From Pseudomonadota bacterium (GTDB lineage Bacteria; Desulfobacterota; Desulfovibrionia; Desulfovibrionales; Desulfovibrionaceae): DNA of 64,000 bases. Numbering within the stretch: position 1 is the stretch's first letter; each line of letters starts with the position of its first letter. Made by a program: the position numbers and the translations under genes. The stretch is taken from the NCBI GenBank assembly GCA_018822105.1, contig JAHJLB010000062.1, positions 1 through 64,000 of the forward strand, in the 5' to 3' direction. Shown here piece by piece: positions 8,834 to 61,369 of the stretch. The notes beneath the pieces were generated by a model that was given only the letters and a program-made list of their open reading frames with translations, did no database searches and had not been told where the DNA came from.

Positions 8834-8866
8834 GAAGGCCGGTCCTTGTGGTTGGTGTCGCAAGGG

Positions 8867-8975
8867 GCTCCGCCCCGGCATGCAGCCTGGGGCTCCGCCC
8901 CGACATTCAGCCAGGGGCTCCGCCCCCGGCGCCCCCGCCGGGGGGAATGATCCCCCCCGGACCCCCTCGTCGGCT
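8867..8975. repeat. GC-rich composite repeat (REP-like), intact copy
   Basis: GGGGCTCCGCCCC-type units occur three times (from about 8868, 8890 and 8914). A strong palindrome with arms CCGGGGGG and CCCCCCGG around AATGATC follows at 8937-8962. Related sequence is split across the ends of the 17.4-23.4 kb element and lies inside the epimerase gene at 58.6 kb. It fills the gap between the permease and the DUF2318 gene. Confidence 0.7.
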
Positions 8976-9037
8976 CGCAGCCAGGGGGGGCCCAGGGGGC
9001 CTCAGGTCCTTTGGCCGCCAGGGGCCTGTTTTCTTGG

Positions 9038-9562
9038 CTAGAAGTACCCGACGCCGGCCTTGAGGTCGGCCTCTGGGATGGACACGGATTTGGCGTCCAC
9101 GGTGCGGGAGATGGGCGAGGGATTGCAGCCGCCCTTGACCTCCATGACCTTGTTGGAGTGGAAGCGCTGCCCGCAGTTGTTGCAGACCAGGTAGTCGCCG
9201 TCCTGGGTGTAGCCCTTCTTCTCGCGGAAGCAGACGTCGCAGGCGTTCAGCGCGGTGCGGATGTTCCCGTCCTTGCTCTTGATGACGAAGAACTGCACGT
9301 CCTTGCCGCCGGTCTTGTAGGTGTAGAAATGGGCCTTGCCGTCGGAGACCTCGGCCAGGGGCAGCTTGACGAGGCCCTGCTGGGCCTTGACCTCCTTGGG
9401 TCCGCCGAAGAGGCTGAAGGCGTGGGCGCGCGGGGCCAGGGTGGCCAGCAGCACCGCCAGGGCGACCAGGGCGGCCAGAATGACGAGGTGGCCGGGGGCG
9501 GCGTGCGGGGCCGGGGCGGCGATAGCCCTGGGAAAGGATGGGCGTCTCTGGGGCTGCTGCAT
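9038..9562 (-). CDS. DUF2318 Fe-S-binding membrane-anchored protein
   Basis: This 174-residue protein starts at ATG 9562, behind AAGGAGACG. One transmembrane segment (residues about 27-50) is followed by a periplasmic domain. The domain carries NACDVCFREKKGY, VCNNCGQRFHSNKV and GGCNPSP, the Cys pattern of the DUF2318 family (FtrD-like, Fe-S-containing). In iron-uptake loci of the P19/Ftr1 kind such a protein is encoded with FtsX permeases and an ATPase, as here. It is the first gene of the minus-strand trio, separated from the permease by the composite repeat. Metal handling or periplasmic redox is the likely role; neither P19 nor Ftr1 is in the window. Confidence 0.75.
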   Translation of the reverse strand: MQQPQRRPSFPRAIAAPAPHAAPGHLVILAALVALAVLLATLAPRAHAFSLFGGPKEVKAQQGLVKLPLAEVSDGKAHFYTYKTGGKDVQFFVIKSKDGNIRTALNACDVCFREKKGYTQDGDYLVCNNCGQRFHSNKVMEVKGGCNPSPISRTVDAKSVSIPEADLKAGVGYF

Positions 9563-17356: not shown

Positions 17357-17420
17357 GCCGGGGTTCCGCCCCTGCGCCCCTGCGCCCCTGCGCCCCGCCG
17401 GGGCTCCGCCCCTGCGCCCC
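17357..17420. repeat. Composite GC-rich repeat, left half, truncated by the element
   Basis: Units of the type GGGGYTCCGCCCCTGCGCCCC are repeated, ending at 17420 where the sequence abruptly becomes AT-rich. The matching right half resumes at 23398. Confidence 0.65.
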
Positions 17421-23381: not shown

Positions 23382-23397
23382 TATTAGCATCCCGTAG

Positions 23398-23430
23398 CCC
23401 GCCGGGGGGCATGATGCCCCCCGGACCCCC
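23398..23430. repeat. Composite repeat, right half (palindromic part)
   Basis: CCGCCGGGGGGCATGATGCC is followed by its complementary arm and GGACCCCC. It is nearly the same as 8936-8967 and continues the repeat broken at 17420. Confidence 0.7.
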
Positions 23431-23503
23431 GCAGTTGGTGTCTCGGGCGCGTCCCAGCCAGGCCTGCGGAGCCTGCTGCCGGCCTGGGGCGCGTGGCTTG
23501 GCG

Positions 23504-51227: not shown

Positions 51228-53977
51228 GGCTTCTCCTCCAGGGGGAAGCGCAGGATGAAGCGCGCCCCGGCGCCGGTGTTCTCCGCCTGGATGCTCCCCG
51301 CGAGCTGGAGCGCCAGGCTGGTGATCAGGGTCAGGCCCAGGGTGGAGGAGCCCTCCAGGTCGAACCCCTTGGGCAGTCCCGGCCCGTTGTCCTCCACCGT
51401 CAGCTCGAGCTGCCCGTCGGCCTGCCGCAGGGCCACGAGCAGGCTGCCCTTGCGGCCGTCACGGAAGGCGTGCTTCACGGCGTTCATGGTCAGCTCGTTG
51501 AGCACCAATCCGCAGGGGATGGACCGGGTGACGGGCAGGCGCACGTCCTCCACCCGGTACTCCGCAAGCACCTGCACATCCGCGCTGGCCAGCACGCGGT
51601 CCACCAGCCGGGGCACGAAGTCGGCCATGCCCACGCTGGAGAGGTCGCTTGAGCCGTAGAGCTCCTCGTGCACCAGGGCCATGGCCGAGATGCGCTTCTG
51701 GCTCTCGTCGAACATGGCCCGGTCCAGGGGCTCGATGACGTACTCCGCCTGGAGGAAGAGCAGGCTGGAGATGAGCTGGAGGTTGTTCTTCACCCGGTGG
51801 TGGATCTCCTTCAGCAGGATCTCCTTCTCGTGCAGGGAGCGCAGCACGCCGGCCTCGGCGTCCAGGCGGCCCACCACCTGCCAGCAGGCGTCCATGAACA
51901 GGGAGAGCTGCAGCAGGTCCGCCTCCAGGTAGTCCCCGCTCCTGTTGCCCACCCCGGCCACGGCGATGATGCGGTCCTCGCGGAACACGGGCACGCTCAT
52001 GAAGTTGTCGAGCTGCACATGGCCCTCGGGGTAGCCGCGCTTGAGCGGGTGCGGGGCCTGGAAGTCGTTGACGATGATGGGCTTCCTCTGGCGCACCACC
52101 TCGCCCCAGATGCCGGTCTTGTCGAGCTCGTAGACCTGCGTCGCGCCCTTGACCGTACACTCCTGCATGACCTCCCCGGACCAGCTGTTGAGCACGAACT
52201 GGCGGGCATCTTCGCTGTAGTGGTAGATGTAGCCGAAGCGGCTCTCGGTCAGCTTCAGGGCCTCGGACAGGCAGTAGTCCAGGAACTCCTGCACCGAGGG
52301 CGCCCTGTGCTGCAGCACCCGCACCAGGCACTGCTGCCGGGCCAGCAGGCGCCGCACGTGCTCCTCGGCCTTCTGGCGCGCATGGATGAAGCGCGCCTGC
52401 TGCACGTTCTGGTAGGCCCGCAGGGACAGCTCCGAGGAGATCAGGAACAGGGCCCTGGCCACCTTTTCAAACTGCTGCGTGGACATGACCGGGACCTCGG
52501 CCAGGGCGGCCTTGAAGTCCTCCGGGTCCGCGCCGATCTCCGTGGCGTAGCGCAGCATGCCGGCCTCGTCCTGGGCTTCGTTGCGCACCTGGCCGATGAG
52601 CCAGTTGGCGATGTGCTGGCCGCCGATGCTGATGCTGGCGCCCGCGTCCCAGAGCCCCCCGCTCAGGCAGGGCTGGATGTTCGGTCCGGAGAGGTTGGGG
52701 CGGCCCAGCTGGGCGTCGGAGGCGTAGCAGTTGGCCAGGCCCTTCCCGGTCTTGCGGATGACGTCGCGGCAGAGCCGGCAGAAGTTGCTCGGCCGGGTGA
52801 TGGGCACGCCGTCCGGGCTGGTGATGATGGAGGCCACGTTCATGGACTCGGCGAAGGTGTCCTGGATGCGCTGGATGTCCTCCAGGTTGAACAGGTCCGC
52901 AAAGCGGATGGACGCCGGGCTCTCCAGGGGCTGGGTCAGGGCGAGGACCTGCCTGCGCAGGGCCTCCTCGGCTTGTTTGCGCTCGGTGATGTCCAGGCCG
53001 TAGAGGTTGACGGTGTCGTCGGTGGCGATGGTGCGCGCGGCGAAGGCGAAGAACCGCCCGCCGAACTCGACATCGAAATGCTGCACCTTTCCGCTGGCCA
53101 GGGCGCGGGCGATGGAGGCGGCGTAGGGGTCCGGAAGCCGCTGGCCCTCCTGGACGCCGAGATGGGCCAAAAGCGCCGCGCTGGCCGGGTTGGCCTTGAG
53201 CAGCAGCGCCTCGGCCGAGGCGTGCATCACGGGGCTCGGGTTCTCCTGGGGGAAGCGCGCCAGGCTGCGCACCTCGGCCTGGATCTCCTGCACCTGGGCG
53301 AAGGACATGGCCAGGCCGGCCTGCATGGCGTTCACGGCCTGGGCCAGCACATCCAGCTCGTCCCCGGAGGGCTTTTTCTCCAGGACCAGGGGCGGAGACT
53401 CCTTCTCCAGGCTGAAGGACCGGAAGTGCCGGGCAAAGGCGGCGAGGTGCCGGGAGATCATGCTGCTGGTGAGCCAGAACACCAGGCCCGCCACCAGGAA
53501 GACCAGCGTGGCGCTGAAGGCCATGGCCCGCAGGGTGGTGTCCAGGGCCTCGCGCCAGGACTTCCGGAGGTCGGCCTGGACGTGCAGCACGCCCAGCACC
53601 TGGCGCTTGCCCTCGTGCACCTCGGTCAGCGGGAACTCGCGCTCCAGCACGCCCTCCGCCCGGGGCTCGCCGGCCTGGGCCACGAGGCCGTCCTGGTCGC
53701 GCACCGCGGCATAGCTGATGTGCTTGAAATGGAGGAGGCCCCCCACCTGCAGGTTCAGCCGCTCCTGGTCGAACTCCCAGAGGAAGTTGGCCACGCTGCG
53801 GGCCGAGGTCTGCTCGATGACCGCGAGATTCTGGTGCAGGGCGCGCAGGGAGACGTCATAGGCCCACCAGGCGTTGGCCGCGAACAGGAAGGGCAGGAAC
53901 GCCGCGCTGAAGCCCAGGACGCGCTTGAGCAGGCGGCGGTTCAGGGGCTTTTGGACAGCCAGGGGCGGGACGTTCAT
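51224..53977 (-). CDS. Membrane sensor histidine kinase with PAS, PocR and GAF domains (HisKA_2)
   Basis: This 917-residue protein starts at ATG 53977. Two transmembrane helices (about 18-40 and 150-172) flank a periplasmic sensor, then a HAMP-like linker. A PAS domain ends in GLDITERKQAEEALR. The PocR domain (about 330-470: FADLFNLEDIQRIQDTFAES, FCRLCRDVIRKTGKG) is a small-molecule-binding module with a Cys pair. A GAF domain (about 515-660) and HisKA_2 with KEIHHRVKNNLQLI follow, then HATPase with ELTMNAVKHAF. ATGA overlaps join it to the binding protein upstream and the receiver downstream. The binding proteins may present the ligand to its periplasmic domain. Confidence 0.88.
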   Translation of the reverse strand: MNVPPLAVQKPLNRRLLKRVLGFSAAFLPFLFAANAWWAYDVSLRALHQNLAVIEQTSARSVANFLWEFDQERLNLQVGGLLHFKHISYAAVRDQDGLVAQAGEPRAEGVLEREFPLTEVHEGKRQVLGVLHVQADLRKSWREALDTTLRAMAFSATLVFLVAGLVFWLTSSMISRHLAAFARHFRSFSLEKESPPLVLEKKPSGDELDVLAQAVNAMQAGLAMSFAQVQEIQAEVRSLARFPQENPSPVMHASAEALLLKANPASAALLAHLGVQEGQRLPDPYAASIARALASGKVQHFDVEFGGRFFAFAARTIATDDTVNLYGLDITERKQAEEALRRQVLALTQPLESPASIRFADLFNLEDIQRIQDTFAESMNVASIITSPDGVPITRPSNFCRLCRDVIRKTGKGLANCYASDAQLGRPNLSGPNIQPCLSGGLWDAGASISIGGQHIANWLIGQVRNEAQDEAGMLRYATEIGADPEDFKAALAEVPVMSTQQFEKVARALFLISSELSLRAYQNVQQARFIHARQKAEEHVRRLLARQQCLVRVLQHRAPSVQEFLDYCLSEALKLTESRFGYIYHYSEDARQFVLNSWSGEVMQECTVKGATQVYELDKTGIWGEVVRQRKPIIVNDFQAPHPLKRGYPEGHVQLDNFMSVPVFREDRIIAVAGVGNRSGDYLEADLLQLSLFMDACWQVVGRLDAEAGVLRSLHEKEILLKEIHHRVKNNLQLISSLLFLQAEYVIEPLDRAMFDESQKRISAMALVHEELYGSSDLSSVGMADFVPRLVDRVLASADVQVLAEYRVEDVRLPVTRSIPCGLVLNELTMNAVKHAFRDGRKGSLLVALRQADGQLELTVEDNGPGLPKGFDLEGSSTLGLTLITSLALQLAGSIQAENTGAGARFILRFPLEEKP

Positions 53978-54738
53978 GGCTGCGCCTCCTCCAGCCCGGT
54001 CCTGGTCAGGCGCTCGATGACGCCCTCGCGCCGCATCTGGCGCAGGGCCTCGGCCAGCCTGGGCACGAGCTCCGCGTGGCGCTTGTGCAGGTAGATGTGC
54101 ATGGGCGGGTCGGCCAGGGGCGGAAGGACGGCCCGGGTGCCCTGGTAGCCCTTGCGGCGGATGATCTCCTGGCCGGTGTAGAGGTTGGCGATGCCAACCG
54201 CGGCCCTGCCGCCGGCCACCATGGCCAGCACGGCCTCCTCGTCGCGCATTTTGGTGGCCTTCCCGAGGAGGCCGAGGTTGCGCTCCACCACCTTCCAGCC
54301 GTGGACATAGGCCACCTCGCGGCTGCGCAGGTCGGCCCAGCCGGAGAGCTTCAGGCCGGGATCGCGGGTGAAGGCGGTGAAGGGGAAGGTGCCCATGGGC
54401 TCGGGCACCAGGACCAGGTTCGGGTACTGGCGCTCCACCCCGGCGGCGCGGTCGTAGTTGCCGTCGTCGATGCCCGCGTTGGCGTTCAGCAGGCAGCGCT
54501 CCGAGGGCAGGATGACCAGCCGCACGGGCACCCCGATGCGCCGGAAGGCCTCGGCCACGATGCGGTCGGCGATGCCCGAGCCGTCCGGCCGGGCCATGGG
54601 CGAGGAGTCGTCGGTGTTCAGCACCAGGGTCTGCGCCGCAGGCGCAGGGGCCGGCAGGCACAGCAGCAGGCAGGCAAGCAGCAGCGCCAGGCGCAGCCCG
54701 GGGGTGCGGGCAGCCAGGGGAAGGCCGTTGGCGTTCAT
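53974..54738 (-). CDS. Periplasmic substrate-binding protein (SBP_bac_3-like), copy 1
   Basis: This 254-residue protein has a signal peptide (LRLALLLACLLLCLPAPAPA) and a family-3 solute-binding fold (LVLNTDDSSPMARPDGSG, DRIVAEAFRRIGVPV). It is paralogous to the next gene upstream: the N-terminal motifs and the last 45 residues are nearly identical, and the centre differs. No ABC permease is present, so it may act as a ligand-presenting co-sensor for the kinase it overlaps (ATGA) and not in uptake. Confidence 0.83.
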   Translation of the reverse strand: MNANGLPLAARTPGLRLALLLACLLLCLPAPAPAAQTLVLNTDDSSPMARPDGSGIADRIVAEAFRRIGVPVRLVILPSERCLLNANAGIDDGNYDRAAGVERQYPNLVLVPEPMGTFPFTAFTRDPGLKLSGWADLRSREVAYVHGWKVVERNLGLLGKATKMRDEEAVLAMVAGGRAAVGIANLYTGQEIIRRKGYQGTRAVLPPLADPPMHIYLHKRHAELVPRLAEALRQMRREGVIERLTRTGLEEAQP

Positions 54739-55475
54739 GGCTGCGCCTCCTCCAGCCCGGCCCTGGTCAGGCGCTCGATGACGCCCTCGCGCCGCATCTG
54801 GCGCAGGGCCTCGGCCAGCCTGGGCACGAGCTCCGCGTGGCGCTTGTGCAGGTAGATGTACATGGGCCTGGTGGCCAGGGACGGGAGGATGGCGTATATG
54901 CCCTGGTAGCCCTTGCGGCGGATGATCTCCTGCCCGGTGTGCAGGGAGCCGACGACGATCCCGGCCCGGCCCTTGTCCAGCAGGGCGAAGAGGCCCTCCT
55001 CGTCGCGCAGGCCGTGGGCGCCCTTCACGCCCGCGAGGTTCTGCTCCACCAGCTTCCAGCCGATGACGTAGGCCACCTGGTGGCCCTGCAGACCGGCCCA
55101 GCCGTCCAGCCGGAGGGTCGGGTCGCGGGTGAAGGCGGTGAAGGGGAAGGTGGTCATGGGCTCGGGCACCATGACCAGGTTCGGGTAGAGCCTCTCCAGC
55201 CCGGCGATGCGCACGTAGTTGCCGTCGTCTATGCCCTGGTTGGAGTTGTACAGGCAGCGCTCCGAGGGCAGGATCAAGAGCCGCACGGGCACCCCGATGC
55301 GGCGGAAGGCCTCGGCCACGATGCGGTCGTCAAAGCCGCTGCCGTCGGGTCGGGCGTGGGGGGGCGCGCAGTCGGTGTTCAGCACCAGGGTCTGCGCCGC
55401 AGGCGCGGGGGCCGGCAGGCACAGCAGCAGGCACAGGGCCGCAAAGAGCGGCAGAAGGCGGGCGCGAGGAGACAT
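54735..55475 (-). CDS. Periplasmic substrate-binding protein (SBP_bac_3-like), copy 2
   Basis: This 246-residue protein starts at ATG 55475 (MSPRARLLPLFAALCLLLCL), with a signal peptide cleaved near APAPAA. The domain layout is as in the adjacent paralogue, but the binding-site region diverges (DCAPPHARPDGSGFDDR; YLYNSNQ versus LLNANAG-type segment), suggesting a different ligand. Its stop overlaps the start of copy 1 by four bases. It is the first gene of the seven-gene signalling operon; no clear promoter was seen in the 56 bases before ptmE. Confidence 0.82.
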   Translation of the reverse strand: MSPRARLLPLFAALCLLLCLPAPAPAAQTLVLNTDCAPPHARPDGSGFDDRIVAEAFRRIGVPVRLLILPSERCLYNSNQGIDDGNYVRIAGLERLYPNLVMVPEPMTTFPFTAFTRDPTLRLDGWAGLQGHQVAYVIGWKLVEQNLAGVKGAHGLRDEEGLFALLDKGRAGIVVGSLHTGQEIIRRKGYQGIYAILPSLATRPMYIYLHKRHAELVPRLAEALRQMRREGVIERLTRAGLEEAQP

Positions 55476-56635: not shown

Positions 56636-57826
56636 CTAGAAGGTCATCTTCTTCTGCACCAGCGCCGGGGTCAGCGGCGTGGTGGCCAGCACCTCGGCGA
56701 TGCGCGGCCCGGCGTTGCCCGAGCCGTAGGGATTGACCACCGTGGCGCAATGGGCGCGCCAGGCGTCGTCATGGATGCCGCGCACGCAGGCGGCGTAGAT
56801 CTCCTGCTCGTCGTAGCCGGTGTCCACCACGTTGTCCGCGCGCAGGCGGCCCTGCTGGCGGCTGCCGATGTTCACCACCGGACAGCCGAAGATGGCCGTC
56901 TCCTTGATGCCGCTGGACGAATTGCCCGCGTACACCCCGCGCCCGGCCGCCCCGCAGAGGTGCAGCACGCCGTGGTAGTTGCGGCGGCCCAGGCTCTTGT
57001 GCACCTGGACGTTCGGCAGCTTCTCGGCCGCCACCCGCTCCAGCTCCTGGATGATGGCTTTGCCGCCGGCGTCGTTGTTGGGATAGGTCAGGACCACCTG
57101 CACGCCCTCGGCCGCCAGGCGGCGCATGGCCGCCAGGGCCGGGCGCACCTGGGCCGCGGCGTCCTCGAACTCCGTGGTCACGCTGTGCTGGGTGAAGATG
57201 ACCACGGGCCGCGCCGGGTCCAGGCCGTAGCGCTGGCCGAGCTCCTCCGGGCTTGCGTAGTTGCCCTGGCTGATGAGGTCCAGGGCCGGAAAGCCGACGT
57301 TGTGGACGCGCCAGGGCTCCTCGCCCAGTCTGCGCACGCGCTCCGCGGCCTCCTCGTTGGTGGTGAAGTGCAGGTGCGCGAGCTTGGTCATGGCGTGGCG
57401 CACGGAGTCGTCCAGGGCGCCGCCCTCGGTGATGTCGCCGCCCTCGATGTGCGCGGTGGGGATGCCCATCTGGGTTCCGGCCACCACGGCGGCCAGGCCC
57501 TCGAAGCGGTCGGCGTAGACCACGAAGAAGTCGGGCCTGAGGGCGTCCAGGCTCTCGGACAGGCTGACGATGCCCGTGCCGATGGCCTGGGCCGTGGCGG
57601 CCAGGGTGTCGTGGCGCATGGTCATCTTCACTTCCGCGTGGATGGCGAAGCCGTCGCGCTCGATCTCGCTTTTCGTCGCGCCGAAGTCCTCGTCCAGGTG
57701 CGCGCCGCCCACGAAGAGGAAGCCCTCGAGGTCCGGGTGTGCATTGATGGCCTTGATGATGGGGAACTGCAGGCCGTACTCGGCCCGGTTGCCCGTGAAG
57801 ATGGCGATTTTGCGCTTCTGTGTCAT
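56636..57826 (-). CDS. NDP-sugar 2-epimerase, hydrolysing (LegG/NeuC type)
   Basis: This 396-residue GT-B-fold epimerase starts FTGNRAEYGLQFPIIKAI, typical of NeuC/LegG. It has AHIEGGDITEGGALDDSVRHA and GNSSSGIKETAIFGCP. It releases the nucleotide and inverts C2, giving a free ManNAc-like or 2,4-diacetamido-trideoxymannose sugar for the NeuB-type synthase encoded in the same operon. Context (LegB and PtmE homologues) favours the LegG substrate over plain UDP-GlcNAc. Seven bases separate it from the epimerase gene before it. Confidence 0.87.
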   Translation of the reverse strand: MTQKRKIAIFTGNRAEYGLQFPIIKAINAHPDLEGFLFVGGAHLDEDFGATKSEIERDGFAIHAEVKMTMRHDTLAATAQAIGTGIVSLSESLDALRPDFFVVYADRFEGLAAVVAGTQMGIPTAHIEGGDITEGGALDDSVRHAMTKLAHLHFTTNEEAAERVRRLGEEPWRVHNVGFPALDLISQGNYASPEELGQRYGLDPARPVVIFTQHSVTTEFEDAAAQVRPALAAMRRLAAEGVQVVLTYPNNDAGGKAIIQELERVAAEKLPNVQVHKSLGRRNYHGVLHLCGAAGRGVYAGNSSSGIKETAIFGCPVVNIGSRQQGRLRADNVVDTGYDEQEIYAACVRGIHDDAWRAHCATVVNPYGSGNAGPRIAEVLATTPLTPALVQKKMTF

Positions 57827-57833
57827 TGTCGTC

Positions 57834-58907
57834 CTATGCGGCGTCGCCGCCGGTGATGCTCCGTTTCAGGCCCAGGCGCAGGTCCGTCTGCGGCCGCCAG
57901 CCCGTGAGCGCGGCAAGCCGGCCGTTGTCCAGCACCAGGGTCGAGGCGCGCGCGGCCGGGCCGGGCTCCCGCTCCTGCGGAAGGCGCGGAGTATGGAAAA
58001 GTTCTGCGCAAAGGTCAATGAGCCCTCCCACGGAGGTGCCCACGCCCGTGGACAGGTTGGCCGTGAGGGCCCCGGCCGGGCTTTCGAGCTCCAGCGCGGC
58101 CAGGCCCAGGCGGAGGAGCCCCTCGGCGGCATCGGAAACGTGGAGGAAATCGCGCACCGGGCTCTCGTCCCAGACCTGCAGCGGCCCGCCGGCGCGCGCC
58201 TGGGCCAGGATGCGCCCGAGCACGGTGTTCTCGGCGCCGCCGGGGCCGTAGAGGTTGGACAGCCGGGCGATGGCCCCCCGCAGCGGCCCAGCGGCGCAGG
58301 CCGCGCGCACCAGGCCCTCGGCCTCGATCTTGCCGCGCGCGTATTCCGCCTGGGGCAGCAGCGGGTCGTCCTCCCGGGCCGGGCGGTCCAGGGCGTCGCC
58401 GTAGACGATGCCCGTGGAGGGAAAGACAAAGGCGCAGGGCGTGTTGGACAAGGCGTCCAGGGCCAGGGCCACCAGGTCCACGTTGAGCCGCCGGGCCAGG
58501 TCCGGGTCGCGCTGGCAGGCGCCCGCGTCGGCCAGGCCCGCCAGATGGAAGAAGGCCGCCGGGGCTCTGCCCCTGGCCCCTGCCGGGGGCTCCGCCCCCT
58601 GCACCCCGGCCAAATGGCCTTGGCCCTTTGGAATCCCGTTGGGGGGGCCAGGAGACAAGGCCCCCTGGCCTGCACCGAGATGCGCTGCGGCCTCGGCCAG
58701 GGCGTCCGAGCCCTCGGCATTGTGGCTGTAGCCTGCCGGCAGCGCGCCGGGCCAGGGCCGGGTGTCCACGCCCAGCACCAGCGCCCCGGAGGCCGAGAGC
58801 CGGCGCACGACCTCGCGGCCCAGGAAGCCGCAGGCGCCGAAGACCACGGCCCGGCCGAAGCGGGCGGCGGACTGGGGGGCTGCGGTTGCTGCGAGACTGT
58901 CCGGCAC
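57834..58907 (-). CDS. NAD-dependent epimerase/dehydratase carrying a repeat-derived insertion
   Basis: This 357-residue extended SDR has the NAD motif VVFGACGFLGREV (about 21-33), a Ser in PSTGIVYG and the YxxxK of AEYARGKIEAE. Residues about 78-116 (rich in Gly, Pro and Ala) are encoded by the GC-rich composite repeat at 58559-58674 and interrupt the fold just before AAFFHLAGLADAG, where relatives have no such loop. The insertion keeps the frame. The enzyme probably modifies a nucleotide sugar of the nonulosonic acid pathway or of the glycan receiving it. It lies between legB (eight bases upstream) and legG. Confidence 0.8.
   Translation of the reverse strand: MPDSLAATAAPQSAARFGRAVVFGACGFLGREVVRRLSASGALVLGVDTRPWPGALPAGYSHNAEGSDALAEAAAHLGAGQGALSPGPPNGIPKGQGHLAGVQGAEPPAGARGRAPAAFFHLAGLADAGACQRDPDLARRLNVDLVALALDALSNTPCAFVFPSTGIVYGDALDRPAREDDPLLPQAEYARGKIEAEGLVRAACAAGPLRGAIARLSNLYGPGGAENTVLGRILAQARAGGPLQVWDESPVRDFLHVSDAAEGLLRLGLAALELESPAGALTANLSTGVGTSVGGLIDLCAELFHTPRLPQEREPGPAARASTLVLDNGRLAALTGWRPQTDLRLGLKRSITGGDAA
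58559..58674. repeat. Composite GC-rich repeat inside the epimerase gene
   Basis: GGGGCTCTGCCCC and GGGGGCTCCGCCCCC units, plus a CCAAATGG/CCCTTTGG region, are related to the intergenic repeats at 8.9 and 17.4 kb. About 116 bases long, it is translated in frame. Confidence 0.65.
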
Positions 58908-58915
58908 GGCCGCGC

Positions 58916-59926
58916 CTAGATGTTGTACTGGTCGGTTTTGTAGGCCTTGCGGTTCTCCGGGTCGGCGAACCAGCGCGCGGTCTCGGCCAGGCCCCGGTCA
59001 AAGCCGTCCAGGCCGCCGTAGGCCGGGGCCCAGCCGCAGAGCCGCAGCGCCTTGGCGTTGCCCGCGAACAGGCGCTCCACCTCGCTCTTCTCGGGCCGCA
59101 GGCGCGCCTCGTCGCACACGATCTCGATGTCCGCGCCCATGACATGCGCGATGCGCTTGGCCGTGTCGCCGATGCTGACCTCAAACCCGCTGCCCACGTT
59201 GATGACCTCGCCCACGGCGGCGTCGGACCGGGCCACGGCGATGAACCCGCCCACGGTGTCGGAGACGAAGTTGAAGTCCCGCGTGGGGGAGAGCGCGCCG
59301 AGCTTGATGGAGCGCTTGCCCGCGGCGATCTGGGTGATGATGGTGGGGATGACGGCGCGGGCGCTCTGGCGCGGGCCGTAGGTGTTGAAGGGCCGGATAA
59401 CGGCCACGGGCGTGCCGAAGGCGGCGTGGAAGGACAGGGCCAGCTGGTCCGCGCCGATCTTGGTGGCCGAATAGGGCGACTGGCCCTGGAGCGGGTGCTC
59501 CTCGGTGATGGGCACGAAGCGCGCCGTGCCGTAGACCTCGCTGGTGGAGGTGTGCACCACCTTCTGGACGTCGAGGTCGCGGGCCGCCTGGACGATGTTC
59601 AGGGTGCCGGCCACGTTGGTCTGCACGTAGGTGTCGGGGGAGTGATAGGAATAGGGGATGGCGATGAGCGCGGCCAGGTGCAGCACCACCCCGCAGCCGC
59701 GCATGGCCGTGCGCACGCCGTTGGGGTCGCGGATGTCGCCCTGGAACACGTCCAGGCCCTTTTTCAGCTCCGGCTCCAGGCTGTCCAGCCAGCCCCAGGA
59801 GGAAAAGGCGTTGTAGTGCACGAAGGCGCGCACGTCATGCCCCTCGCGCAGCAGCCGCTCCACCAGGTGCGAGCCGATGAACCCGCCCGCGCCCGTGACC
59901 AGGATCTTCCTGCCCGCAAGCTCCAT
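58916..59926 (-). CDS. legB: NDP-sugar 4,6-dehydratase (LegB-like)
   Basis: This 336-residue SDR starts MELAGRKILVTGAGGFIGSHL. It has TSTSEVYGTARFVPI, the catalytic SPYSATKIGADQL and RPFNTYGPRQSARAVIPT, closest by eye to LegB, the GDP-GlcNAc 4,6-dehydratase of legionaminic acid synthesis. ATG 59926 shares its base with the last base of the neuB stop (TAATG), so translation is coupled. The aminotransferase LegC that should use its product is not in the window. Confidence 0.85.
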   Translation of the reverse strand: MELAGRKILVTGAGGFIGSHLVERLLREGHDVRAFVHYNAFSSWGWLDSLEPELKKGLDVFQGDIRDPNGVRTAMRGCGVVLHLAALIAIPYSYHSPDTYVQTNVAGTLNIVQAARDLDVQKVVHTSTSEVYGTARFVPITEEHPLQGQSPYSATKIGADQLALSFHAAFGTPVAVIRPFNTYGPRQSARAVIPTIITQIAAGKRSIKLGALSPTRDFNFVSDTVGGFIAVARSDAAVGEVINVGSGFEVSIGDTAKRIAHVMGADIEIVCDEARLRPEKSEVERLFAGNAKALRLCGWAPAYGGLDGFDRGLAETARWFADPENRKAYKTDQYNI

Positions 59927-60975
59927 TACTTCCTCCCGCCGTCCAGCATGTCCCAGGCGAGCTGGGTGTCCTTGTCCATGTCCACCGCGGCCGCGCGGCC
60001 CAAAAGCCCCTCGAAGTGCTCGGCCAAAATCTGGCCCGTGCCGGGCCGCTTGACCCAGAGGTTGGCCTTGGTGAGGGCCTCGCCCTTCTTCACTGGCGCG
60101 ATGGTGACGCAGGAGGCGTAGGCGAAGTCGATGGTCACCTGCTCCTCGGGCAAAATGGCCTTGGTGCCGCCCAGGGCCGCATGGATGAGCCTGGAGCCCT
60201 CGATGAGGCTCTTCATCTCCTGCGGGTCCATGGACAAAAACACGTCCGGGCCGGGCCAGGATTTGTCCGAGGTGTAGTGGCGCTCCAGCATGCTCGCGCC
60301 CAGGGCCACGGCCCCCAGGCAGGGGTAGATGGTGAGGGTGTGGTCGGACAGGCCCACCACGGCGTCGGGGAAGGCCTCCCTGAACTCCACCATGGCCCCC
60401 AGGCGCACCTTCGAAGGCGGGGTGGGGTACATGCTGGTGGTGTGCATGAGCCCGAAGGGGACCCCCCGCCGGCGCAGAATCTCCACGCTCTTGGCCACGC
60501 TCTGCATGCCGTTCATGCCCGTGGACAGGATGACCGGCTTGCCGAAGGAGGCGATGTGGTCCACCAGCGGGTAGTTGTTGCATTCGCCGGAGCCGATCTT
60601 GTAGCCGCACACGCCCATGGACTCCAGACGGTCGGCCGCGGCGCGGGAAAAGGGAGTGGACAGGTAGACCATGCCCAGGGATTGCACCAGGTCCATGAGC
60701 CGGCGCTCGTCGGCCTCGCAGAGCTGGCAGCGCTCCATGATTTCAAAGATGGAGACGTCGGCGTTGCCGGGGATCACCGACCTGGCCTGCGGGCTCATCT
60801 CGTCCTCCACCACGTGGCACTGGAACTTCACGCACTCGCAGCCCACGGCGTGGGCGTCGCGCACCATGCGCTCGGCCTTGGCGTAGTCGCCCTCGTGGTT
60901 GATGCCGATCTCGGCGATGACCAGGGGCGGGAAGTCCGGTCCGATGGCGCGTCCGGCAAGGGTGATCTGGGGCAT
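59926..60975 (-). CDS. N-acetylneuraminate/legionaminate synthase family (NeuB/LegI)
   Basis: This 349-residue PEP-dependent synthase starts at ATG 60975 behind AAGGAG. The TIM barrel has VIAEIGINHEGDYAKAERMV, GYKIGSGECNNYPLVDHI and VGLSDHTLT. The C-terminal SAF/antifreeze-like domain is APVKKGEALTKANLWVKRPG. It condenses the LegG or NeuC sugar with phosphoenolpyruvate to a nonulosonic acid. It is the first gene of the five-gene minus-strand operon. CMP activation (LegF/NeuA) would have to be encoded elsewhere. Confidence 0.9.
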   Translation of the reverse strand: MPQITLAGRAIGPDFPPLVIAEIGINHEGDYAKAERMVRDAHAVGCECVKFQCHVVEDEMSPQARSVIPGNADVSIFEIMERCQLCEADERRLMDLVQSLGMVYLSTPFSRAAADRLESMGVCGYKIGSGECNNYPLVDHIASFGKPVILSTGMNGMQSVAKSVEILRRRGVPFGLMHTTSMYPTPPSKVRLGAMVEFREAFPDAVVGLSDHTLTIYPCLGAVALGASMLERHYTSDKSWPGPDVFLSMDPQEMKSLIEGSRLIHAALGGTKAILPEEQVTIDFAYASCVTIAPVKKGEALTKANLWVKRPGTGQILAEHFEGLLGRAAAVDMDKDTQLAWDMLDGGRK

Positions 60976-61369
60976 GGGCGGCTCCTTTGTCTGCGGCAGA
61001 GAGTGAGCGGACGATAGGGAAAAGGGCGGCAAGAATCAAGGTGGGCGGCCCAAGGCCCGGAGAGGACGCGGCCCCGGTCCAGGGCCGCTGAAGAGGCACG
61101 CCGGGAGGATGTTATATCGTATAAGGGCAGGCCTTTGTGTGCACCTACGTAAATATATTTCCAATAATATGAAATTAAAAGGAATAAAAATTTGAAAAGG
61201 GCTTGCGTAAAGCCAGATAATGTCATACTGTATAACTACAGACGCGCCGCCTGCCGGGAAAGGCCTGCCCGCCGCACGGGCCGGGGCCGCCCAGGGGTAA
61301 AGAAAGGTCGGGCGACGACCGATAAATCGAAACTGAAGCCCATGTCGGGCGGGATAAACGGGGGGAGTC
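60976..61369. other. Divergent intergenic region between neuB and the PEP-CTERM gene
   Basis: These 394 bases are partly AT-rich (61110-61240). They contain no gene. Two 16-base motifs of the form ATGTYATAYYGTATAA lie at 61109-61124 and 61220-61235 in the same orientation. A TATAAC is embedded in the second, without a good -35. Confidence 0.5.
61109..61235 (+). promoter_or_regulatory. Pair of ATGTYATAYYGTATAA motifs
   Basis: ATGTTATATCGTATAA (61109) and ATGTCATACTGTATAA (61220) match at 13 of 16 positions and are 111 bases apart. The first contains the near-palindrome TTATA-TCG-TATAA. They could be operators controlling one or both divergent genes. Confidence 0.35.

Follow-up and report, generated by a model that had tools for sequence, protein, structure and literature searches.

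A mosaic hairpin repeat inside an extended SDR gene of the Desulfovibrionaceae: a probably old insertion kept in frame

A gene for an extended SDR protein carries, in frame, a 114-nt mosaic hairpin element that belongs to a multi-copy repeat family and is absent from the same site in three orthologues. The gene is located in the window, i.e. the whole 64-kb stretch of DNA that was analysed, which is contig 17 of the source genome (3.17 Mb, 63 contigs). The source genome is referred to below as the own genome (G000), and the other 14 genomes of the genus as G001-G014. Very probably the element is an old REP/BIME-like insertion into a tolerant turn of the protein; selection on the enzyme would have preserved the frame, within which the insert has been eroding ever since.

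The SDR gene and its neighbours are arranged as follows:

57834..58907, minus strand: extended SDR (NAD-dependent epimerase/dehydratase) gene, the carrier of the insert, 357 aa from GTG 58907
58916..59920, minus strand: upstream neighbour, LegB-type NAD-dependent 4,6-dehydratase (TIGR04180, 518 bits, cut-off 475)
56636..57826, minus strand: downstream neighbour, NeuC/LegG-type UDP-GlcNAc 2-epimerase (TIGR03568, 377 bits, cut-off 235.9)
59926..61032, minus strand: upstream, NeuB/LegI-like nonulosonate synthase (TIGR03569, 355.5 bits, below the cut-off of 399.65)

By annotation, the SDR gene belongs to a legionaminic-acid-type cluster. Inspection of the sequence and its open reading frames reveals a frame without stops from the GTG at 58907 to the terminal stop at 57834. 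The protein matches Pfam family PF01370 (Epimerase) with an E-value of 3.5e-31, the match starting at residue 115, where the insert ends, and its top Foldseek matches in the PDB are UDP-sugar 4-epimerases and related reductases and other enzymes (7yst, E 1.9e-17). It contains the Rossmann GxxGxxG, the Ser/Thr and the YxxxK, which we take to be the defining motifs of extended SDR epimerases/dehydratases. The segments GACGFLG, STGIVYG and YARGK, presumably the catalytic motifs, are all found in the translation, and the motif residues are invariant across seven aligned SDR sequences; the motifs are kept, as the earlier note on this DNA had claimed, and so is the predicted fold.

Elsewhere in the window, positions 600-1061 contain tandem 33-nt units in one open frame, with an 11-residue pattern (ATFSGAAWF...) that resembles pentapeptide repeats. 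Two adjoining paralogous genes occupy positions 53971-55333 on the minus strand, with copies 761 nt apart; their DNA is 84-87% alike over two stretches, and they may encode substrate-binding proteins. A search of the whole window against Rfam at the gathering threshold yields two tRNAs only, and no family at the insert.

The insert forms residues 79-116 of the SDR protein (AGQGALSPGPPNGIPKGQGHLAGVQGAEPPAGARGRAP), directly before AAFFHLAG and in frame, as described in the earlier note, whose limits of 58559-58674 agree within a base with those found here. Its parts are listed below, the hairpin units and the T-unit remainder without strand:

58560..58673, minus strand: inserted hairpin element, 114 nt or 38 codons, missing at this site in the orthologues of G009, G011 and G012
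58561..58573: unit A hairpin 1, GGGGCTCTGCCCC
58585..58599: unit A hairpin 2, GGGGGCTCCGCCCCC
58610..58631: unit B hairpin, CCAAATGGCCTTGGCCCTTTGG on the plus strand
58641..58668: unit G hairpin, belonging to the mirror arm, GGGGGGGCCAGGAGACAAGGCCCCCTGG
58667..58673: GGCCTGC, all that is left here of the terminal T unit

On the plus strand the order of the SDR copy is A-A-B-G-T, without a central palindrome and with the T unit at one end only. In G002, unit B is a perfect palindrome, CCAAAGGGCCTAGGCCCTTTGG. Judged by this arrangement, the insert is a compact yet ordered element, and more than a matter of composition. The roughly 39 added residues of the earlier note overstate the gain, since the net lengthening relative to the uninserted G011 protein is 33 codons (192 versus 93 nt over the same loop). 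A home-made codon score, taken in frame, is +0.18 and +0.41 for the flanks and -0.63 for the insert. None of the six frames of the insert in the own genome contains a stop; 80% of the frames are likewise open when 113 related 60-nt arms are read in six frames each, though only 18 of these 113 are stop-free throughout. Openness is therefore no sign of coding design, an interpretation that was rejected in favour of composition. An intrinsic terminator within the SDR gene was also considered and rejected, a scan of 58400-58850 having turned up neither terminator-like nor promoter-like sites. Misassembly of the insert is unlikely, because the separate G002 record has the same insert.

Membership of the repeat family goes beyond what chance would give. 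BLASTN within the own genome, with scores for 40 of 107 candidates, gives at least 47 matches at E≤1, the insert itself included and some overlapping. The pattern of unit A, with at most one mismatch, has 37 matches, including the two of the SDR copy, against 1 for a reversed control. A covariance model with the SDR copy in its training set (R1) finds at least 81 matches at E≤0.1 in the own genome, clustered to at least 58 sites; these counts are lower bounds, since 150 of 2949 candidates were scored. As circularity was to be avoided, a second model (R2) was built from six other copies without the SDR copy and searched in 89,885 bases. It scores the SDR copy of the own genome at 46.6 bits (E 4e-9) and that of the G002 orthologue at 61.0 bits. 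In the window, R2 also matches the following sites:

8864..9039, no strand assigned: intergenic family copy with two mirror arms, adjoining the 3′ end of a called gene (54.4 bits)
17360..17420, no strand assigned: unit-A hairpins in a degenerate run, matched weakly (19.5 bits, E 0.009)
23386..23431, minus strand: further family copy, absent from the earlier note (36.4 bits)

The repeats at 8.9 and 17.4 kb had both been assigned to the family of the insert; the former is a clear member, the latter a weak match. The distribution of the family is wide. With R1 it is found in all 15 genomes of the genus, the best E-value per genome being 4.3e-11 or lower, and, with tighter filtering and E≤1e-6, in 31 of a sample of 59 genomes from the taxonomic family, the own genome and G002 included, and in 24 of 44 genera.

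The anatomy of the family was read by eye from 115 arms plus the loci of a T-unit 14-mer. Often soon after a stop codon, an element has an optional terminal T unit, then unit A, then unit B or G, a variable central palindrome and finally the mirror arm. The T unit reads AATATGCTCCGCAGGCCA or GCCTCCGGCGGCCA, unit A GGGGCGCTGCCCCTGGACCCCGCC, unit B AAAGGGCCTGAGGCCCTTTGGAATCCCC and unit G GGGGGAAATGATTTCCCCCGG. The 14-mer of the T unit, CCGCAGGCCAGGGG, has 43 matches in 15 genomes and none for the reversed control; on its own it is no proof of an element, because four or more of the loci inspected, namely L224, L225, L227 and L232, do not have the look of one. A separate observation concerns G010, which holds 23 of the 43 14-mer matches: at L241:1485-2137 (G010:C3) there are 4.2 tandem copies, with 96% matches, of a 157-nt hairpin element that shares the T unit with the SDR insert. 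The ends of this variant are inverted (GTGCCTGTTTCATGC...GCATGAACCGGCAC is an example), and it folds over its whole length. A contig begins no more than about 150 nt from several of the family matches (G000:C38:78, G000:C43:18, G012:C167:30, G003:C23:43 and G025:C81:16), as if the elements break assemblies.

Family copies normally adjoin the 3′ ends of genes, and internal copies are very rare. Placement was determined with a home-made, unbenchmarked gene caller based on codon score, for 56 of the at least 58 sites in the own genome: 22 sites lie between convergent genes, 22 between genes on the same strand (tandem) and 3 between divergent genes, 2 overlap a gene, and 7 have no called gene on one side (a contig end or none called). 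The SDR site is the only internal one among the 56, the other overlapping site, C41:105097, touching only the 3′ tail of its gene. For seven other genomes, 65 of 134 matches in 60 loci were classified, mostly the best match per site, with mirror arms and weak matches set aside; the loci were taken from a score-ranked list and did not include the G002 SDR site. Of the 65, 31 lie between convergent genes, 27 between tandem genes and 3 between divergent ones, 3 lack a neighbour and 1 is at a 3′ tail. At L187:1560-1616 and G000:C41:105097-105153 the element overlaps the 3′ end of a called open reading frame, where such elements may supply the last residues and the stop codon.

SDR orthologues are present in 8 of the 15 genomes of the genus: the own genome, G002, G005, G007, G009, G010, G011 and G012. 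At E≤1e-15 no orthologue was found in six genomes of the genus, and G013 contains only a relative of 32% identity. The alignment with orthologues lacking the insertion that the earlier note had proposed shows a site that is empty in G009, G011 and G012, where a short turn leads from helix to strand. Orthologues of distant species sharing the segment would have pointed to an ancestral loop; those found to share it here all belong to the same genus, and of the orthologues found the one furthest removed, that of G012 (47% identical), is without it. In G002, which like the source of the own genome is a sulfate reducer, the same element is present in frame and 33 nt (11 codons) longer, the extra piece being bounded by GCAGGCC direct repeats. 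Its T end is nearly intact and aligns with that of an intergenic G014 copy (L237) over 39 nt. Since these direct repeats would allow a slip deletion, the shorter T end of the own genome is probably explained by a 33-nt deletion between repeats that G002 still has. The insert of G010 consists of T and G units plus ∼40 nt of other sequence and is flanked, as judged by eye, by an 18-nt direct repeat, GGGCCGGGCCGGGCTGGC; no flanking direct repeat was seen by eye around the inserts of the own genome and G002. G005 contains a 20-nt remnant, GCCCCGCAGGCCAGGGGCGC, which agrees in 19 of 20 bases with the T-A junction of the family.

The best T-unit score was reached in 0 of 1000 Markov randomisations for each of G002, G010 and G005, and in 791, 313 and 498 of 1000 for G007, G011 and G009, respectively. 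The 43 of 1000 obtained for the own copy reflect that its T unit is mostly gone. R2 matches the insert of G010 weakly and in part (17.4 bits, E 0.029) and has no match at E≤1 in the G005 locus, so that these two cases rest on the T-unit match. Because G002 has the element, G010 part of such an element and G005 a remnant, the insertion is old within the genus, and neither private nor recent.

The distribution of filled and empty alleles was compared with an unrooted rpoB tree of 10 genomes, which leaves out G001 and G012 (match to a wrong open reading frame, ∼41% identity), G005 and G014 (no rpoB match) and G006 (fragments). In this tree G002 groups with G003, G013 and G009, the last of which has no insert, and the own genome branches next to this group; G010, with an insert, and G011, without one, are together in another group. 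The rpoB genes of the own genome and G002 differ by ∼9%. A single gain without losses or transfer does not fit these relations, which would call for several losses of an ancestral insertion, for movement of the allele by recombination, or for a separate insertion in G010. The favoured history is one old origin for the insert of the own genome, G002 and G005, with recombination between the lineages of the own genome and G002.

The divergence of the two alleles is uneven along the gene. Over coding coordinates 1081-1440, which comprise the SDR N-terminus and the insert, the own genome and G002 are 93-95% identical, as opposed to 77% just before and 77-86% after this region; identity between the own genome and G009 is 64-77% over the same coordinates. 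A scan within 1062-1998 delimits a low-divergence tract at 1071-1455, with 21 differences in 384 positions against 92 in 553, a contrast reached in 4 of 500 permutations. The tract suggests recombination between the lineages of the own genome and G002, although other causes of uneven divergence are possible. A scan of the whole SDR gene, which returned a 936-nt tract (0 of 300 permutations), was set aside as dominated by the divergent gene ends.

To see where the insert lies in the protein, structures were predicted with AlphaFold2. The model of the own SDR protein (7 sequences, mean pLDDT 69.6, pTM 0.77) has a helix at residues 69-78 and a strand at 117-121, and the insert as delimited fills exactly the stretch between them; the structural modelling suggested in the earlier note thus places a loop there, with residues 81-113 at pLDDT below 50. 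The low pLDDT may reflect thin coverage, as 2 of the 7 sequences span the insert. In the model of the uninserted G009 protein, helix 64-75 and strand 81-85 are joined by a 5-residue turn. In Rossmann folds generally, alpha-to-beta turns of this sort are located at the sheet's edge and remote from where NAD binds.

These observations can be combined into a very probable course of events. A mosaic hairpin element, reading A-A-B-G-T on the plus strand, would have entered the turn between helix alpha-C (69-78) and strand beta-4 (117-121) in an ancestor of at least two species of the genus and probably of three or four. The insertion would have left the frame intact, the element being free of stops because of its high G+C content. 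With the turn at a distance from bound NAD, the enzyme has probably remained able to fold and to act. Selection on the enzyme would then hold later changes in frame, while the insert itself drifts and is trimmed, as in the 33-nt deletion of the own genome and the remnant of G005. The element was presumably brought in by a mover of some kind, and the allele would have passed between species by homologous recombination. Frame retention is observed directly: the six measured loop lengths (192, 225, 213, 123, 129 and 93 nt) are all multiples of 3, and the 11 SDR matches in 8 genomes are all without an internal stop. That the repeat creates new protein sequence, as the earlier note put it, is true at the level of the open reading frame.

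That the SDR gene is instead a decaying pseudogene, with a frame open by an accident of GC content, is very improbable. The six-frame openness of the element would fit such decay, as would the low codon score of the gene on the home-made scale (0.26 versus 0.68-0.77 in its neighbours), but the stop-free matches, the loop lengths and the invariant motif residues argue against it, and downstream of the insert pN is 0.108, well below a pS of 0.326. Even less credible is a GC-rich loop of the host that grew by slippage and became repeat-like through composition, with no insertion at all. Loop length does vary within the genus, as slippage would have it; the covariance and terminal-unit matches are, however, far above chance, and the units are ordered as in the intergenic copies. 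A role of the loop that is under selection in the enzyme, such as assembly, partner binding or regulation, is improbable as well, though the segment has been kept and open in two species whose rpoB genes are ∼9% apart. The inserts of the own genome and G002 differ in 7 of 120 bases, with 3 synonymous substitutions in 31.8 sites and 3 non-synonymous ones in 79.2 sites. The resulting pN of.038 and pS of.094 give a ratio of ∼0.4, not far from the 0.33 downstream and the 0.22 upstream of the insert, but 3 + 3 substitutions, six in 37 codons, do not tell neutrality from constraint. The segment is, moreover, eroded in G005, partial in G010, missing from orthologues that keep the motifs and predicted to be unstructured. 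Tolerance without a new function appears to be the better description of the insert.

It is possible, though rather unlikely, that the loop received at least two independent insertions, one in the lineage of the own genome and G002 and one in G010, which would make it a recurrent landing site. The G unit and the inner part of the G010 insert differ, leaving it unclear whether G010 shares the event; its 18-nt flanking repeats and the weakly resolved SDR trees, which set G010 apart from the own genome and G002, also point to a separate event. Yet the loop, the orientation and the terminal unit are all the same, and the G005 remnant and G002 have upstream host bases in common, in line with the single origin that we infer for the own genome, G002 and G005. 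The preferred reading thus remains that of one old, tolerated insertion. A more far-reaching combination is doubtful: a mosaic hairpin class throughout the Desulfovibrionaceae, with a defined terminal unit and a non-RAYT mover, that entered the same loop more than once and whose allele passed between species by recombination. If true, it would provide a natural series from complete through partial to remnant, in which the gain, the spread and the loss of protein sequence of repeat origin could be followed.

The insertion of a repeat in frame is a known kind of event. The parts of PMC3733652 considered here describe palindromic repeats in frame inside genes in Rickettsia and in several REP-bearing genomes. 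The Rickettsia palindromic elements (RPE-1, RPE-4 and RPE-6) are, like the SDR insert, small and multi-copy, some of them lying in frame in functional genes; the likeness is one of description. As expected for an RPE-like event, the insert belongs to a multi-copy palindromic repeat and has an empty orthologous site in G009, G011 and G012. Unlike the RPEs, the present elements are built of GC-rich mosaic units, occur in the Desulfovibrionaceae and are very rarely found within genes (1 internal site of 56). The same parts of that source place REPs mostly between convergent or same-strand genes, near 3′ ends, with few inside open reading frames, and the placement of the present family (22 convergent, 22 tandem and 3 divergent of 56) resembles that of the GTAG/CGTC REPs. 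In contrast to these, the A hairpin, the only hairpin considered, has GTAG no further than 10 nt away in 0 of 113 arms, and for CGTC the figure is 3 of 113 (shuffled means 7.2 and 18.4). The mobility ascribed to the repeat in the earlier note can be deduced from the copy number and from the filled and empty alleles, but no transposase was identified: a RAYT protein (Y1_Tnp, PF01797) was found in 0 of the 15 genomes of the genus, several of them incomplete, with a control matched in 5 of 14. Because of the missing GTAG and Y1 transposase, the element is not filed as a RAYT-type REP. A MITE would be expected to have terminal inverted repeats and a target-site duplication; inverted ends are seen in the 157-nt variant of G010, the SDR copy having its T unit at one end only, and the candidate for a duplication is the 18-nt direct repeat around the G010 insert.

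Judged by title and opening lines of the abstract, none of the papers found for Desulfovibrio and palindromic repeats describes this element family. According to the portions of PMC2759123 considered, small mobile repeats of enterobacteria are fused in frame with open reading frames; ERIC (RU-1), YPAL (RU-2) and RU-3 resemble the SDR insert in this respect, but belong to another host group and are likened to it by description. The present case extends this kind of event to one more group of hosts, and its alleles form a clear series. For one insertion in a free-living genus, outside Rickettsia and the REP/RAYT cases, the empty, complete, partial and remnant alleles are available side by side, which makes possible a direct test of whether protein segments that stem from repeats become useful or are no more than tolerated. 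Beyond the SDR gene, the family points to a widespread class of intergenic elements in the Desulfovibrionaceae, for which the known REP transposase was not found in the 15 genomes of the genus.
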